From positions 1-35,644 of the IMG/VR virus record IMGVR_UViG_3300030390_001779: DNA of 35,644 nt; one strand, written 5' to 3'. This DNA is from a virus. The notes below the pieces were generated by a model that worked only from the letters and a program-made list of their open reading frames with translations, was not told where the DNA came from and did not search any database. Below, in pieces: positions 47 to 29,778 of the stretch. The position numbers and the translations under genes are program-made. Numbering within the stretch: the first letter of the stretch is position 1; every line of letters starts with the position of its first letter.

Positions 47-157
47 TTAATACTTTGTTGTGCCGTTTTTAGCGATTAATGATTTGATTAGTGAGTCTAA
101 CTCTGCTAATGCTTGTTTTTGTTTATACTGTTTCCAGTGTTCTATTGCTTCGTACAT
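47..157 (-). CDS. Small hypothetical protein (36 aa)
   Basis: A 36-codon minus-strand frame begins MYEAIEHWKQYKQK and ends KNGTTKY. It is predicted to be mostly helical and polar, with many Lys, Gln and Glu, and has no membrane segment. Its ATG lies 20 bases downstream of a copy of the repeated two-box promoter-like motif (178-210), and the next gene begins two bases after its stop. The leader is A/T-rich (AAAAAAAATAAT before ATG) with no Shine-Dalgarno. That position supports a real gene despite its size. Function unknown; no family recognised. Confidence 0.55.
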   Translation of the reverse strand: MYEAIEHWKQYKQKQALAELDSLIKSLIAKNGTTKY

Positions 158-177
158 ATTATTTTTTTTATTACATT

Positions 178-210
178 TATATTATCCATTTTGTGTCGTA
201 TTTAGTTTGT
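178..210 (-). promoter_or_regulatory. Phage promoter-like motif, copy 1 (leftward)
   Basis: Read on the minus strand, box A ACAAACTAAATACGA (210-196) is followed after 7 bases by box B TGGATAATATA (188-178). The same boxes with the same spacing recur at 755-787, 1253-1285, 1422-1454 and, on the plus strand, 1495-1527. This copy overlaps the 3' end of the HAD-like gene and would drive the 36-codon gene starting at 157. Confidence 0.7.
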
Positions 211-753
211 GATAATTGATTTGCCACCTTGAACTAAAAAACCTTTTGGGTATTCTTTGAACATTTCTTTAACAGCTTCTACGTTACTAAACGCATCATC
301 TACAAAGTATATGTCATTTAAACCTGACGCTATTAAATTTTCTTGTATCCATTTAGCTTTTGCTTCGCCTGTTGAGTTGCCAAGACCTACTACATTTTGT
401 AGTTTTAGCTCGATATTTTGTGTTAATAACCACTCGTGTATTGCTTGCTCGCTGTCACTGTGTCGTGCTGTTAGTATGTATACTTGATCGTTACCATACT
501 TTTTTATTTGATTTTTTAACTTTTGAATGAGTGGACCTGGAGTGCCATCTGTTACTTGGTTGAAGTCTGTGAAATCAAAGCTATATCCTTCTGCTTTTAG
601 TTTTTCACCTACTTTAGGCCACTCATCAGACGTTACTGATATTGACTTATTGTTAAGAGTTGCATACACTACATTGTTGCTGAAACCTACTGTTTCGTCA
701 AAGTCGAAGATGCTTGCTCCGTGTGTTATTTTATTTAATTTATTCATATTCAT
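202..753 (-). CDS. HAD-superfamily phosphatase-like protein
   Basis: A 183-residue protein with HAD (haloacid dehalogenase-like) hydrolase motifs in the expected order: motif I FDFDET with nucleophile D17 and acid D19; motif II YILTAR with T95; a lysine-bearing stretch near residues 131-134 (motif III candidate); and motif IV FVDD with D152/D153. The family hydrolyses phosphoesters through an aspartyl-phosphate. Phage members of this size resemble the phosphatase half of polynucleotide kinase or nucleotide phosphatases, so a role in nucleotide or nucleic-acid end repair is plausible but not shown. A promoter-like motif ends one base before the ATG at 753; the second Met at 747 is an alternative start. 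Its stop overlaps the next promoter copy. Confidence 0.8.
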   Translation of the reverse strand: MNMNKLNKITHGASIFDFDETVGFSNNVVYATLNNKSISVTSDEWPKVGEKLKAEGYSFDFTDFNQVTDGTPGPLIQKLKNQIKKYGNDQVYILTARHSDSEQAIHEWLLTQNIELKLQNVVGLGNSTGEAKAKWIQENLIASGLNDIYFVDDAFSNVEAVKEMFKEYPKGFLVQGGKSIITN

Positions 754-754
754 C

Positions 755-787
755 TATATTATCCAATACTGTTCGTATTTAGTTTGT
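755..787 (-). promoter_or_regulatory. Phage promoter-like motif, copy 2 (leftward)
   Basis: Minus-strand box A ACAAACTAAATACGA (787-773) and box B TGGATAATATA (765-755) with 7 bases between. Box B ends two bases before the ATG of the HAD-like gene (753), so if box B is a -10-type element the transcript would start at or inside the annotated start codon. The right end of box A nearly touches the stop of the 29-codon ORF at 790. Confidence 0.7.
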
Positions 788-789
788 AC

Positions 790-879
790 TTAGTTTTTAA
801 AGTCGCTTGACTTAATTGCTGTGAACAAGTGTACTAACTGTAGTACTATCATTATTGTTGTTATTGTTATAAAATTCAT
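790..879 (-). CDS. Possible 29-residue membrane peptide
   Basis: A minus-strand frame from ATG 879 to TAA 790 encodes a 29-residue peptide with a hydrophobic N-terminal two thirds (MNFITITTIMIVLQLVHLF) and a polar tail ending SSDFKN. This is the composition of a single membrane-spanning phage peptide. The ORF exactly fills the gap between a tRNA-like hairpin and the promoter-like motif at 755-787. Its leader has no ribosome-binding site. It is short enough to be chance, but the gap-filling position favours a gene. Function unknown. Confidence 0.4.
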   Translation of the reverse strand: MNFITITTIMIVLQLVHLFTAIKSSDFKN

Positions 880-880
880 G

Positions 881-920
881 TTGTAGTATGAGAATCGAAC
901 TCACATAAACCATTACTACA
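881..920 (-). ncRNA. tRNA-like hairpin (T-arm plus acceptor-like stem)
   Basis: On the minus strand, TGTAGTA (920-914) pairs with TACTACA (888-882), and inside it TGAG (903-900) pairs with CTCA (892-889) around the loop TTCGATT (899-893). That loop is a canonical tRNA T-loop, and GTGAG/CTCAT would be an acceptable T-stem. A 10-base stretch fills the place where the D and anticodon arms should be, so this is not an ordinary tRNA. It could be a decayed tRNA, a tRNA-like RNA element, or coincidence. A second hairpin (944-968, stem CCAGT/ACTGG) lies just upstream. Confidence 0.3.
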
Positions 921-978
921 CTGTACTCATTCATTTTGATATACCAGTAAACAAGTGAAACTAACTGGACTTTTGCTA

Positions 979-1224
979 CTATGCTAACTTTAGATTTCTA
1001 CAGAAAGCTGGTATTGCATTTGAGTTTGTATAACTTTTATATTTAGCAAAACAATTCATTGAGTTAAATCTTTTTGAATGTGCATTATACACTTCATCAT
1101 GATTATAAGAAACATTTTCTTGTTTTTTATTAGTAAATGTTATTACTATATTTTTACCAATTAATGATTTTCTTATTACAAATCTTTTAGTTTTAAGTTC
1201 TTCAACTTTGTTTACATTTGACAT
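979..1224 (-). CDS. Hypothetical protein (81 aa)
   Basis: An 81-residue minus-strand protein starting MSNVNKVEELKTKRF. It is basic, with a beta-like stretch (KNIVITFTNKK, about residues 24-34) followed by a His/Tyr/Asn-rich part and two Cys (58 and 76). It lies 28 bases downstream of promoter-like copy 3 (1253-1285), an arrangement like the 36-codon gene and copy 1, which supports it as a real gene. No family recognised and no membrane segment. Confidence 0.6.
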   Translation of the reverse strand: MSNVNKVEELKTKRFVIRKSLIGKNIVITFTNKKQENVSYNHDEVYNAHSKRFNSMNCFAKYKSYTNSNAIPAFCRNLKLA

Positions 1225-1252
1225 ATTTAATTATTTATTTATTTGTTACGTT

Positions 1253-1285
1253 TATATTATCCATTTAACTTCGTATTTACATTGT
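1253..1285 (-). promoter_or_regulatory. Phage promoter-like motif, copy 3 (leftward)
   Basis: Minus-strand box A is the most divergent copy, ACAATGTAAATACGA (1285-1271); box B TGGATAATATA (1263-1253) is identical to copies 1 and 2 and the 7-base spacing is kept. It stands 28 bases upstream of the ATG at 1224. Confidence 0.65.
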
Positions 1286-1421
1286 AAAAGTATATACTTT
1301 ATTTGTTTGTTATTATTGCTTAGCAGATACTGCCCGCACTGTCACACTTCGCAATTGCCATTCGTATTCTTTATACTCGCTAAATGCTGCTCAACTACGA
1401 GTGTTTGTTTGTTGTTACATA

Positions 1422-1454
1422 TCTATTATCCAAATGCAGTCGTATATAGTTTGT
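1422..1454 (-). promoter_or_regulatory. Phage promoter-like motif, copy 4 (leftward, divergent)
   Basis: Minus-strand box A ACAAACTATATACGA (1454-1440) and box B TGGATAATAGA (1432-1422), spacing 7. It faces away from copy 5 with 40 bases between them. No convincing ORF lies between it and copy 3 (only 13 codons from an ATG near 1360), so its product may be an untranslated RNA or simply a second start for the leftward transcript. Confidence 0.6.
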
Positions 1455-1494
1455 AAATGTATATGTGAAATATAATATGTGAAAATTTATAAAT

Positions 1495-1527
1495 ACAAAC
1501 TAAAAACGAATTGACATGGATAATAAT
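1495..1527 (+). promoter_or_regulatory. Phage promoter-like motif, copy 5 (rightward)
   Basis: Plus-strand box A ACAAACTAAAAACGA (1495-1509) and box B TGGATAATAAT (1517-1527) with the same 7-base spacing as the four leftward copies. It is the only rightward copy found and lies upstream of the whole rightward cluster, so it is the best candidate for that cluster's first promoter. Confidence 0.65.
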
Positions 1528-1678: not shown

Positions 1679-1730
1679 TGTGACATTAGGCTATTAATAG
1701 TACTAGTAACAGGCAAGTGTCACACTTTTT
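1679..1730 (+). terminator. Inverted repeat followed by a T-run, possible attenuator
   Basis: TGTGACA (1679-1685) and TGTCACA (1718-1724) form a 7-bp stem followed by CTTTTT. The 32-base loop is long for an intrinsic terminator but contains the self-complementary CTATTAATAG (1691-1700) and TACTAGTA (1701-1708). Lying in the leader before the first rightward gene, it could be an attenuator; weak evidence. Confidence 0.3.
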
Positions 1731-1754
1731 GTAAATTACTCTTTTACTATGTAA

Positions 1755-1783: not shown

Positions 1784-2230
1784 ATGGCTTATAAAATGAA
1801 AGGATCTAAATTTTACGGTATGGGGAATAGTTCTCCGGCTAAGCACGGGACGACAGATGATTTTCTATATGGTAGAAATGGGCACAATCCAGATATTATG
1901 GAAGGTAAGCACGAAGATTGGCATACAGACAAGATAGAGGCGGAAAAGAAAAAACCATCTCCAAATAAGCAAAAAGTAAAAATAAAAGATCCAAGACCTA
2001 AAAAAGATAATTTAGCATATTTAGAGGGTGTAGATCCTTTTAACAAAGGGGAAATGGCGTTGGCACGTTATAAAAAAGACAAGCAACGGGCGGATTTAAA
2101 AAAACGGAGAGAAGGTACTAAAAAGATGTTAAACTGGGTTGATGAGCAAAATAGCAAGAAATTTCGAGGTATGATGGATAAACACATGGGTGTTGATCCA
2201 AGTAAGGAAATTAAGATAAAAAAGAAGTAG
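1784..2230 (+). CDS. Lysine-rich tagged protein (148 aa)
   Basis: A basic, polar 148-residue protein and first gene of the rightward cluster. Its N-terminus MAYKMKGSKFYGMG closely matches the start of the 8136 protein and, less closely, those at 2467 and 7687. It contains S-P-A-K near residue 17 and S-P-N-K-Q near residue 58, motifs repeated in other small proteins here. The rest is mostly charged and probably helical (KKDKQRADLKKRREGTKK). There is no membrane segment or enzyme motif. The tag and position suggest a virion-associated or DNA-binding role, which is inference. Similar short MKG-starting proteins occur, as far as I recall, in uncultured marine phages. Confidence 0.75.
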   Translation: MAYKMKGSKFYGMGNSSPAKHGTTDDFLYGRNGHNPDIMEGKHEDWHTDKIEAEKKKPSPNKQKVKIKDPRPKKDNLAYLEGVDPFNKGEMALARYKKDKQRADLKKRREGTKKMLNWVDEQNSKKFRGMMDKHMGVDPSKEIKIKKK

Positions 2231-2231
2231 T

Positions 2232-2465
2232 ATGAGAAACGCACCGCTACCAGGATTAATAAAGACATCGACAATGGGATATAAGAGAAATAGTCCTGAT
2301 GTAAATAAGAAAGTCAATGTAATACCTTCTGGTGATATAACAATGAAAGGTGTTGATTTTAAAGTTAAAGGCACGGATAATTTAGGCAACACAAAAATAA
2401 TGAAACCAGGTAAAAACTATAAGTTCCCTGGTAATATAGTAACAGAAACTAAATACAAAAAATAA
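2232..2465 (+). CDS. Conserved small phage protein (77 aa)
   Basis: A 77-residue protein starting one base after the preceding stop. The central part NSPDVNKK, IPSGDITMKGVDFKVKGTDN and GKNYKFPG resembles a short protein seen repeatedly in marine phage genomes (recognition from memory). It reads as alternating short beta strands with conserved Gly and Pro, so a small structural protein is plausible. It lies between two tagged lysine-rich genes in one operon. Function unknown. Confidence 0.7.
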   Translation: MRNAPLPGLIKTSTMGYKRNSPDVNKKVNVIPSGDITMKGVDFKVKGTDNLGNTKIMKPGKNYKFPGNIVTETKYKK

Positions 2466-2466
2466 T

Positions 2467-3606
2467 ATGGCATTTAAAATGAAAGGTTTTTCCATGCATC
2501 AAGGAACATCGCCGGCAAAAGCGTTTGTATCAGCTGCGCAAAGAAAAGCTGTGTGGGCATCTAAAAATGAGCAGTCACCAAACAAGCAGAAAAAAACTAA
2601 AGAAGATTTAATAAAAGAAGGCTTTACACCTGCTGATGCTGATAAAATGATTAAAGATGGTGCAACTACTGGAAGAACTGAACTTGCTAAAGCAAACACA
2701 TCAATTCAACTAGATCGGGCAAAAAAAGAAAAAGGTAAAACTGCTGATCCAAAAGCAACAAGTGAAACTATGGGAGGAGCAAGAACAACTAAAAAATCTA
2801 CAACTAAAAAATCTACTGTATCTGCACATGGTCAATTAAATGATGCAGAACTAGAATATCAAGAAGACTTAAAGAGATCAAAGGAAACGCCAAACAAACA
2901 AAAAGAAGTAGGTGGTACTGAAAGCAAAAAAGGTAATATATTTACTAGAAGAGGTAGAACGCAAAGATCTATAAATAAGGTTGAAAAAACTAAAAATAAA
3001 CTTAAAGATAACGCTAACAAAGAAGGTTTTGATACTAAAAAATCTAAAAAGTTAATAAAAAAAGTTATAAAGAAAACAGTTAAAAGAGATAAAAAAATTA
3101 CTAAGTACTTGACAAAAGATGCACCGTTAAAACATGCTCCTTGGGATAAAGCTCATAAACAAAAAGCTGCACATCCTAATACTGCTGAAGCTCACAATGC
3201 ATCTCCTACTAAGAAAAAAGGATTTCATAAAATGCCTGACGGAACAATGATGGCTGATTCAGCTATGAAACAAAAGAAAACAAAAGGTTTTGGGCCAAGA
3301 GCAGCTAAAGGTGATGATGATCAAAGCAAAGAGTTAGCAAGATCAAGATATGAAATGGGTATGTATAAAAATGATCCTACAGGACAAGCAAAACCTAAAC
3401 AAAGTGATTTTACACCAGCTTATGAAGGTGCTGATTACAGTAAAGATGAAATTCGTAGAATGTCTGAATCAGAGAAAATAGCAAAAATAGACGGATATAC
3501 TCCTAAAAAATCAAAAAAAGTAATGAAAGATGGTAGTAAAACTCAAACTCACCAAAAAGGTAAAGGTGCTGTTGATTTTACACCACATCAATTTAGAAAA
3601 AAATAG
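2467..3606 (+). CDS. Large lysine-rich tagged protein with repeated S/T-P-x-K motifs
   Basis: A 379-residue, extremely lysine-rich and low-complexity protein. It opens with MAFKMKGFSMHQGTSPAK, the best example of the shared tag. S/T-P-x-K motifs occur at residues 15-18 (SPAK), 37-40 (SPNK), 141-144 (TPNK), 246-249 (SPTK) and 345-348 (TPKK), plus basic clusters such as KKSKKLIKKVIKK near 191-203. Motifs of the SPKK class in histone tails bind the minor groove of A/T-rich DNA, so a DNA-binding or condensing role fits, but this is inference. No enzyme domain is visible. It starts one base after the previous stop. Confidence 0.75.
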   Translation: MAFKMKGFSMHQGTSPAKAFVSAAQRKAVWASKNEQSPNKQKKTKEDLIKEGFTPADADKMIKDGATTGRTELAKANTSIQLDRAKKEKGKTADPKATSETMGGARTTKKSTTKKSTVSAHGQLNDAELEYQEDLKRSKETPNKQKEVGGTESKKGNIFTRRGRTQRSINKVEKTKNKLKDNANKEGFDTKKSKKLIKKVIKKTVKRDKKITKYLTKDAPLKHAPWDKAHKQKAAHPNTAEAHNASPTKKKGFHKMPDGTMMADSAMKQKKTKGFGPRAAKGDDDQSKELARSRYEMGMYKNDPTGQAKPKQSDFTPAYEGADYSKDEIRRMSESEKIAKIDGYTPKKSKKVMKDGSKTQTHQKGKGAVDFTPHQFRKK

Positions 3607-3969: not shown

Positions 3970-5535
3970 ATGGAATACAATCAGCCTAGTACTATTGTCA
4001 AAGACTTAAACTTTGGCGATAATGCTAAAAATAAAATAGCAGCAGGCGTTATTAAGCTAGCTCAAGCAGTAAAATCAACCTTAGGAGCATCTGGAAAGTG
4101 CGTTATATACGAAGACGCCAGAGGACTTCCGGTCATAACAAAAGACGGTGTAACAGTAGCAGAATCTGTAGTCTTATTTGACCCGGTTGAAAATATGGGA
4201 GCTACTTTAATAAAAGAAGCGGCTAGAAATACGGTGAGAGAAGCAGGTGACGGTACTACAACAGCAACCGTCCTTGCTGAATCACTTTTAAAAGAAGTTA
4301 ATAGTTGCAATAAAGATGTGACTATAAGAGATATAAAAGATGGAATAAAATCTGGTCTTAAAAAAATTAACGATTATCTAAACGAAGTTTCTGTCAAGAT
4401 CGAAGGCGACATGCTCGAATCTGTTAGTTCAATAAGTTGTAATAATGATGCGGAACTAGGAAAGATTATAGCAGAAGCTTATACTAAAGTAGGTAAAGAT
4501 GGTGTGGTGTTAATGGAAGAGTCACCAACTGAAGAAACATACGTCGAAGTAGTTGATGGCGTACAAGTAGATTCAGGGCTCACATCTCCACATTTTGTTA
4601 CTGATAAGGACAAGCAAATTTGTGAGCTTGACAACCCGTTAGTATTAATAGTAACTTCAGAGATACCTAACATAAGAAAAATACAAACAGTATTAGAACA
4701 TGTTGTAAAAACTAAACGAGCACTACTTATTGTAGCTCCAGTTGATCAACAGGTAAAAGCTGCACTTCTTATGAATAAAGTAAAAGGTAATATAAAAATA
4801 AACATAGTTGACTTACCAGGCTTTGGTCCCACTAAAAACGATACTGTAGCAGACCTTGCTTTTCTTGTAGGTGCTAAGGTTATAAACGAAGAACTTGGTG
4901 ATGATTTGGATCTTATAGATATAGATTGTTTAGGTGAGGCATATACGTCTATAACAGATGATAAAAACACTGTGCTTACTATAGATACACCTGGTGATGA
5001 ATTACAAGAAAGAGTTAAAAGCATACAGAAGTTAATAGAAAAAGAAGATAAAAATCCTTTTTTTAAAAAGAAACACCAACAAAGATTAGCAATGCTTTCA
5101 GGATCAGTAGGTATGGTAAAAGTAGGCGCTGATTCTAAAGTTGAACTAAAAGAAAAGAAAGATAGAATAGAAGATGCTATATATGCTACAAAAGCAGCTT
5201 TGAAAGAAGGAATAGTTCCAGGTGGTGGAGTTGCATTATTAAACGCATCTCAAAAAATCACCGCTGAAGCGGTAGGTGAAGAAATACTACTTAAAGCTAT
5301 TACATCTCCTTTTAAAACTGTACTTAGCAACGCTGGAATAAAAACTACACGTAAATTTAAAGAAGGTGAAGGTATAGATGTAGTAACTGGACTATTTGTT
5401 AATATGAGTAAAGCTGGTATAATAGATCCGGTTTTGGTTACAAAATCGGCGCTGAAAAATGCAGTAAGCGTAGTATCAACAATTATATCTGCAGATTGTG
5501 TAATTTCAAATATGAGGATAGATGAAAGCAATTAA
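3970..5535 (+). CDS. groEL: Phage-encoded GroEL (Cpn60) chaperonin
   Basis: A 521-residue group I chaperonin subunit; bacterial GroEL is about 545. Nucleotide-binding elements are present: TLGASGK (37-43, P-loop region), ITKDGVTVA (56-64, catalytic Asp59), GDGTTTATVLA (93-103), IEDA (400-403, matching the GroEL Asp398 region) and GGGVALL (418-424). The family forms a double ring that folds proteins with ATP and a GroES lid. The C-terminus ends RIDESN without the usual Gly-Gly-Met tail, and the sequence is Cys- and Lys-rich compared with host GroELs, so it is a diverged phage type. The groES-like gene overlaps its end. A role in folding capsid or nozzle proteins is inferred. Confidence 0.95.
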   Translation: MEYNQPSTIVKDLNFGDNAKNKIAAGVIKLAQAVKSTLGASGKCVIYEDARGLPVITKDGVTVAESVVLFDPVENMGATLIKEAARNTVREAGDGTTTATVLAESLLKEVNSCNKDVTIRDIKDGIKSGLKKINDYLNEVSVKIEGDMLESVSSISCNNDAELGKIIAEAYTKVGKDGVVLMEESPTEETYVEVVDGVQVDSGLTSPHFVTDKDKQICELDNPLVLIVTSEIPNIRKIQTVLEHVVKTKRALLIVAPVDQQVKAALLMNKVKGNIKINIVDLPGFGPTKNDTVADLAFLVGAKVINEELGDDLDLIDIDCLGEAYTSITDDKNTVLTIDTPGDELQERVKSIQKLIEKEDKNPFFKKKHQQRLAMLSGSVGMVKVGADSKVELKEKKDRIEDAIYATKAALKEGIVPGGGVALLNASQKITAEAVGEEILLKAITSPFKTVLSNAGIKTTRKFKEGEGIDVVTGLFVNMSKAGIIDPVLVTKSALKNAVSVVSTIISADCVISNMRIDESN

Positions 5536-5779
5536 TAGATATATAATAGTAAATAAAATAAAAGCACAACCTAAAAAGGTTGCTGGTCTTATAATGACAG
5601 ACAATACCGATGTTGATAATAGGTATTTAAAAGCAGAAATAATATCGTGTGGAAACCTTGTGGAAGGATTAAAAGATGGTGATACGATATATTACGATAA
5701 ACACGCAGGACACGACATATCATGGAAAGATACTCTTTATAGAGTTATTCAAGATAGAGACGTTGTTCTCGTAGATTAA
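5522..5779 (+). CDS. groES: GroES-like co-chaperonin
   Basis: An 85-residue GroES-family protein; host GroES is about 97. RYIIVNKI is the first strand; KKVAGLIMTDNTDVDNRY matches the mobile loop, with the hydrophobic LIM that docks on GroEL; KAEIISCGN matches the GEVLAVGN strand; GDTIYYDKHAGH matches VGDIVIFNDGYG; and YRVIQDRDVVLVD is the C-terminal strand. The roof hairpin is short. The gene overlaps groEL by 14 bases, implying translational coupling with it. In bacteria groES normally precedes groEL; here the order is reversed. Confidence 0.88.
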   Translation: MKAINRYIIVNKIKAQPKKVAGLIMTDNTDVDNRYLKAEIISCGNLVEGLKDGDTIYYDKHAGHDISWKDTLYRVIQDRDVVLVD

Positions 5780-18661: not shown

Positions 18662-18679
18662 GCACATTTATATTAAAGA

Positions 18680-18709
18680 CCGGGGCTTCGGCCTCGGCCT
18701 TTTATTTTT
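18680..18709 (+). terminator. Intrinsic terminator after the capsid gene
   Basis: A 7-bp stem (CCGGGGC at 18680-18686 with GCCTCGG at 18691-18697, one G-U pair) closed by the stable loop TTCG is followed by CCTTTTATTTTT. It lies 19 bases after the capsid stop codon and is the clearest terminator seen in the plus-strand cluster. Confidence 0.85.
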
Positions 18710-18733
18710 ATTAATTTTATTATATATTATATT

Positions 18734-29735: not shown

Positions 29736-29778
29736 TTATTAAAAACTGTGACTATATAGACATGTTAAATTAAATTAA

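Follow-up and report, generated by a model that had tools for sequence, protein, structure and literature searches.

Several phages redirect the core RNA polymerase of their host to non-host promoters with sigma factors of their own, among them SPO1 (gp28, gp33-34) and T4 (gp55), and in both phages the early genes use the host sigma. The late promoter of T4 is TATAAATA, without a -35 element, and its MotA/AsiA-dependent middle promoters combine a conserved box centred near -30, the MotA box, with a sigma70-type -10. T7 polymerase reads AATACGA-N7-TAGGG and starts at the GG. In phiEco32 and phage 7-11, early genes are served by host promoters, middle and late genes by a phage sigma, and an anti-sigma shuts host transcription (PMC4331800). 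TAHHTTTG is the element recognized by the primary sigma of flavobacteria (PMC6847099). For the phage lineage considered here, we found no description of gene regulation in the literature, and a search for phage sigma factors in Bacteroidetes phages yielded nothing on this system.

The two-box motif described below is very probably a sigma70-type promoter family read by the host core RNA polymerase together with a phage-encoded sigma factor of ~250 aa. With SPO1 and T4 gp55 it would share the use of host core and phage sigma, but the promoter sequences differ. The box near -30 and the sigma70-type -10 are common to the MotA/AsiA promoters, whereas here the -10 is non-host, a full phage sigma is encoded, and no homologue of MotA or AsiA was noticed among the proteins scanned. 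An AATACGA-N7-TxGG-like string is shared with the T7 promoter, but the predicted start position differs and lineage variants keep the -10/+1 pattern. The likeness to phiEco32 and 7-11 lies in regulation: a phage sigma70-related factor, low-copy and well-conserved phage-specific promoters, and the placement of some promoters upstream of the sigma gene, giving self-feeding expression (PMC4331800). Unlike in those phages, the sites here lie where the replication arm begins, the structural arm yielded none, host-type elements show no enrichment, and the -35 element is long and dominant.

The window and its relatives

We analysed a stretch of 35,644 nucleotides (the window), the first 35.6 kb of a virus record of 52,203 bases. 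Its terminase and portal matched those of Flavobacterium 'elemo' phages, Cellulophaga phages (Pervagoviridae, Pachyviridae), Tenacibaculum phage Gundel_1 and MW202828, an environmental genome from Manatee Spring (terminase 64%). A search of a phage collection found no isolate of the lineage. The plus strand of the record formed the late, structural arm, and the minus-strand arm was present only as the first ~1.5 kb. Near-complete relatives measured 66-70 kb, and their second arm carried small genes together with those for ligase, exonuclease, primase-helicase, thymidylate synthase and ribonucleotide reductase. The replication-arm proteins scanned in relatives were ligase, sigma, exonuclease, primase-helicase, thymidylate synthase, MazG and ribonucleotide reductase. 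Genes for GroEL and GroES lay close to the start of the late arm (window 3970-5779) and were present in relatives too.

Five motif copies in the window

The original prediction described five copies of a motif made of box A and box B, and all five were recovered at their positions and strands with a gap of exactly 7 bases (Table 1). The 33-base pattern, with up to three mismatches allowed, gave 5 matches in the window and 0 in 100 dinucleotide shuffles. The motif had also been said to be absent from the structural cluster; a scan of the 52,203-base record returned the same five copies and none there, and the pattern read backwards had 0 matches in that record. Box B by itself occurred at chance level (28 matches, 22.9 expected) and box A by itself modestly above it (11, 3.9 expected). 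The significance is in the pairing of the boxes at fixed spacing, and the single boxes are weak evidence.

Table 1. Putative promoters and neighbouring genes in the window.
Feature	Positions	Strand	Predicted +1	Mismatches	Predicted leader (nt)	Remarks
Putative promoter, copy 1	178..210	-	G at 174	0		box A 196-210 (-36..-22), box B 178-188; register from site logos
Short ORF, 36 aa, MYEAIEHWKQYKQ...	47..157	-			17	behind copy 1; from translation
Putative promoter, copy 2	755..787	-	G at 751	0		
HAD-like protein gene	202..753	-			4	behind copy 2; from ORF list
Putative promoter, copy 3	1253..1285	-	G at 1249	2		site precedes same gene in 68/75 relatives
Conserved 81-aa gene, predicted early arm	979..1224	-			25	behind copy 3
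Putative promoter, copy 4	1422..1454	-	G at 1418	2		tandem upstream site, minus-strand (predicted early) arm
Putative promoter, copy 5	1495..1527	+	A at 1531	3		divergent, towards late arm
Opening genes of the arm towards which copy 5 points	1784..3606	+				148, 77, 379 aa; function not assigned; ORFs

Four of the five copies had been placed just upstream of a gene. This was correct for copies 1, 2 and 3; copy 4 is a second, tandem site ~194 nt ahead of the 81-aa gene, and copy 5 aims at the late arm, whose first long ORF (1784) is ~253 nt away. A start at 751 would make the first ATG of the HAD-like gene (753) unusable, so that translation would begin at the ATG at 747. A relative of the 81-aa gene was encoded in 111 IMG/VR stretches. 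The first gene behind copy 5 (148 aa) had no PHROG or Pfam match.

The divergent region also held a TGTGACA...TGTCACA inverted repeat (window 1680-1735), and similar repeats occurred near the arm junction in several relatives. The HAD-like protein resembled a domain inside the giant virion protein of relatives (L211:5516-14641, L215:3035-10195), as would be seen after a transfer of the domain, in either direction, between early and virion genes.

Motif anatomy and placement across relatives

At least 119 IMG/VR stretches matched one strict form of the motif, and ~450 further copies were present in related marine phages. The logo from 486 sites read ttACAAACTAAATACGA-N7-TGGATAATAtAAAT-R. Ten near-complete relatives carried 4-13 copies each, with a spacing of 7 nt throughout, on the replication-arm strand and concentrated at the start of that arm. 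The few copies on the opposite strand lay in the divergent region near the arm junction and faced the late arm; in the loci of the 81-aa gene, divergent sites numbered 11 among 388. The scan of the full record and its relatives suggested by the original prediction thus gave five copies in the record and many in the relatives, at one spacing. We also looked for copies lying at random positions, in both orientations and within genes, and such a pattern was not found.

When sites were selected on box A only, GATAAT stood at one fixed offset in 94% of 451 sites and at a neighbouring offset in one. Because most of these loci had been retrieved with the motif pattern, we repeated the analysis on loci retrieved solely by homology to the 81-aa protein of the window. 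The results showed GATAAT at the fixed offset from box A, found alone, in 328 sites and at another offset in 1; a further 119 box-A-like strings without exact GATAAT stood outside these 328/329. The base seven positions past the last T of GATAAT, which had not been selected, was G in 171 sites, A in 157 and a pyrimidine in 0 (n = 328), and the base before it was T or C in 299 of the 328. From this pattern we infer a start site at +1 with GATAAT as the -10 element (-12..-7). A sigma70-type -10 with A-11 and T-7 was present, as was a purine at the predicted start 7 nt past T-7. Upstream, box A has the position of an extended -35 element (-36..-22), its conservation to -22 being longer than that of a normal -35, and an upstream element at fixed spacing was found in three lineages.

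The placement of the sites relative to genes was equally regular. Among independently retrieved loci with enough upstream sequence, the 81-aa gene was preceded by a site in 68 of 75, in nearly all of these at 5-73 nt. Fixed geometry, a purine start base and this recurrence ahead of the same conserved gene support the view of the motif as a promoter. Measured over 472 sites, the closest ATG that opens an ORF of 40 codons or more stood at a median of +19, compared with 94 for random positions. In 89 of the 472 sites an ATG coincided exactly with the predicted +1, so these messages would be leaderless. Leaderless messages make up 5.5% in F. psychrophilum (PMC9723704), and 87% of predicted leaders in F. 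johnsoniae exceed 10 nt (PMC6847099); such messages would be unusual for the presumed hosts. ORFs with their ATG on the predicted +1 occurred at roughly one site in five (e.g. in L106, L131, L146), and several of them encoded proteins of 62-77 aa with paired CxC and CxxC motifs, possibly small zinc-finger regulators.

A phage sigma factor accompanies the motif

The original prediction had proposed a search for a phage RNA polymerase or sigma factor; a sigma was found in the genomes of relatives, and an RNA polymerase was not. The protein, of ~250 aa and encoded on the same arm, matched Pfam Sigma70_r2 and r4 and a PHROG sigma family and aligned with RpoD/SigA. The top PDB fold matches of its structural model (mean pLDDT 73.5) were all sigma factors. 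All ten near-complete motif-bearing relatives carried the gene on the motif strand, with nine of the proteins 56-62% identical to the query. Directly ahead of it in the ten genomes lay the gene of a 207-aa HTH protein, which accompanied sigma in 99 of 104 loci and often overlapped the sigma start (e.g. L221:6547-7170). A fold search with this HTH protein (~207 aa, C-terminal HTH) gave a low-confidence model and no significant match; it is a candidate partner of the sigma.

We then compared the distribution of the sigma gene with that of the motif. Five motif-less relatives had 0 sites and neither the sigma nor its HTH neighbour. Conversely, 67 of 80 loci retrieved by sigma homology carried sites, 376 on the sigma strand and 3 on the opposite strand, and the reversed-sequence control gave 0. 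Most of the 13 loci without sites had little sequence on the promoter side, and some carried a variant motif. Descent alone could account for the co-occurrence, as the phages without the motif are at the same time more distantly related. The gene group ending in ligase-HTH-sigma was preceded by a site in most genomes, so that the sigma would amplify its own expression.

No sigma gene was seen in the record of the window because the record ends inside that arm. In the closest relative with both genes (L337), the 81-aa gene was 88% identical and the sigma lay ~6 kb downstream; by this comparison, the unseen arm of the window phage probably carries a sigma gene. In bacterial genome records the sigma had six matches, all in metagenome bins of mixed taxonomy, and no host can therefore be named.

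Sigma lineages and their -35 boxes

Divergent sigma lineages were found with different upstream boxes. A genome of 63.6 kb (G036) encoded the 81-aa gene and a divergent sigma and lacked the canonical motif; it carried instead a repeated GCAGATTCTTAACGA-N9-TATAAT in the same register as the canonical motif. Two loci with a third sigma lineage (L473/L474) carried CACGGACTTA-N15-GATAAT, with 14 forward and 0 reverse copies, and the box pair was absent at the other spacings checked from 10 to 20. A pyrimidine-G step stood at the predicted -1/+1 in 12 of these 14 copies. The same type of motif occurred once in L472 and twice in L475, and a de novo motif search restricted to L472/L475 and L467/L471 produced no clear motif. 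If the sigma reads these promoters, one would expect each of the three sigma lineages to have its own -35 box within a shared -10/+1 frame, as was found.

A distance-matrix (Mantel) map across the sigma protein showed covariation of box A (-36..-29) with region 4.2 (r 0.30; permutation p 0.013, maximum over windows) but none with region 2. The correlation fell from 0.30 to 0.15 without one seven-member clade, and its support for a pairing of sigma region 4 with box A is suggestive only.

Two finer assignments were tried. A direct contact between the invariant Arg at the sigma70 T440 position and G-12 was dropped, as the G036 sigma keeps the Arg and its promoters have T-12. Associations of single sigma columns with motif bases were confounded by a few clades.

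Host-type promoters

The original prediction held that the motif is not a standard Bacteroidetes promoter, and our results agree: the logo lacked the TAnnTTTG -7 element, and this element was not sense-strand enriched in the sigma clade. In the gaps before genes, TA[ACT][ACT]TTTG occurred 43 times forward and 15 times reverse in 16.4 kb of sigma-less relatives, compared with 14 forward and 13 reverse in 32 kb of the sigma clade. For the TAnnTTTG version, the two groups differed with a Fisher p of 0.004. A search for a conserved host-type element before the sigma gene group found none. Compared with Bacteroidetes sigmaA promoters (TTTG/TAnnTTTG; PMC6847099, PMC7366714, PMC9723704), the phage motif has A-11 and T-7 in common but carries G-12 (T in one lineage), A-6/T-5 for T-6/G-5, and a strong extended -35 where sigmaA has a weak -33. 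In the genomes compared, phage sigma promoters apparently stand in for ordinary host promoters.

Alternative readings

The original prediction called the motif promoter-like and named three candidates to read it: a polymerase or a sigma-like factor made by the phage, or the host aided by an activator. The promoter and the phage sigma are supported by the evidence above, the phage polymerase is not, and an activator is possible as a helper. A single-subunit polymerase of T7 type reading AATACGA-N7-TGG would account for the resemblance of AATACGA and GG to the T7 promoter. We consider it very improbable, since the comparative signal is an invariant purine 13 bases past the first G of GG, and since box A changes in the variant lineages, one of which loses the GG, with their -10 hexamer and +1 retained. 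RNA_pol (PF00940) had no match in 20 genomes in a search run without a positive control, and no such domain was present in the proteins scanned. A polymerase carried in the virion, of N4 or crAss type, could read the motif at entry, and these phages do encode a giant late protein (about 2400-3070 aa) and carry the motif on the arm whose transcription should come first. The giant protein had no RNA polymerase match in Pfam, PHROG or PDB sequence searches, however, none of the five site strands (0/5) folded significantly better than shuffles, which argues against a hairpin, and the -10/+1 arrangement matches sigma-dependent initiation, so that this reading has only a slight chance of being right.

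A different division of labour would follow the logic of T4 MotA, with host polymerase and host sigma on the -10, the 207-aa HTH protein as phage activator on box A, and the phage sigma serving other promoters. The centre of box A near -30, the constancy with which the HTH gene travels with sigma and a conservation that exceeds the usual reach of sigma region 4 all fit this arrangement, but the third lineage lacks the -27..-22 part, and box A distance tracks sigma region 4 (0.33) more than the HTH protein (0.11-0.19). Moreover, the -10 (G/T A T A A T A) differs from the flavobacterial TAnnTTTG (PMC6847099) and is not described among the six motifs that have been mapped for sigma factors in F. 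psychrophilum (PMC9723704). We regard this division as improbable, and the HTH protein as a possible helper activator. An operator, a replication or recombination repeat or an RNA processing element would hardly be expected on one strand, directly ahead of starts, with a -10/+1 geometry and purine, and with a rigid spacing kept in three lineages of different sequence; we give a non-promoter function almost no weight.

Proposed mechanism and significance

In the preferred reading, the host core RNA polymerase would carry the phage sigma, whose region 4 would read box A and whose region 2 would open the -10. Box B would hold the -10 hexamer GATAAT (-12..-7), and R would be +1. Under the control of these promoters would be the small genes with which the replication arm begins, as well as the ligase-HTH-sigma gene group; the divergent copy of some genomes, the window included, would face the late arm. 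They would be early/middle promoters, with the sigma under its own promoter; binding of the sigma to the motif is deduced from the comparisons above, and the timing is presumed, 'early' resting on gene position.

Because the sigma gene lies behind promoters that the sigma would itself serve, the cycle needs another trigger. The first sigma may come from sigma carried in the virion, from a degenerate promoter read by the host, or from a second, weaker late-arm motif. A stronger version, which we think unlikely, is that host promoters are no longer used at all and that the sigma, with or without its HTH neighbour, is brought in by the virion or present at entry by some other route, and guides the host core to the earliest genes. 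If this were true, infection would begin under a promoter code specific to the phage, with no phage polymerase involved.

For what seems to be a common group of marine phages, the motif marks out the predicted start sites. The lineage seems to have exchanged host promoters for its own sigma, and sigma and -35 box diverge together in at least three branches, which provide a natural series on how a sigma and its promoters shift specificity in step. The sharp question that this raises is the source of the first sigma.

The weaker motif (~aaCRwGTRAYwATA) occurred before late-arm genes (window 29736-29778; G001, G013-G016, G018), with 19 matches in late-strand gaps versus 4 on the early strand. Its RAYWAT resembled the -10 of the main motif and box A was missing; it is perhaps a late promoter class. 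Elsewhere in the late arm, a conserved terminator-like hairpin stood behind the major capsid gene (window 18662-18733), followed in most relatives by a near-identical TTATTATATTATATTATG leader.
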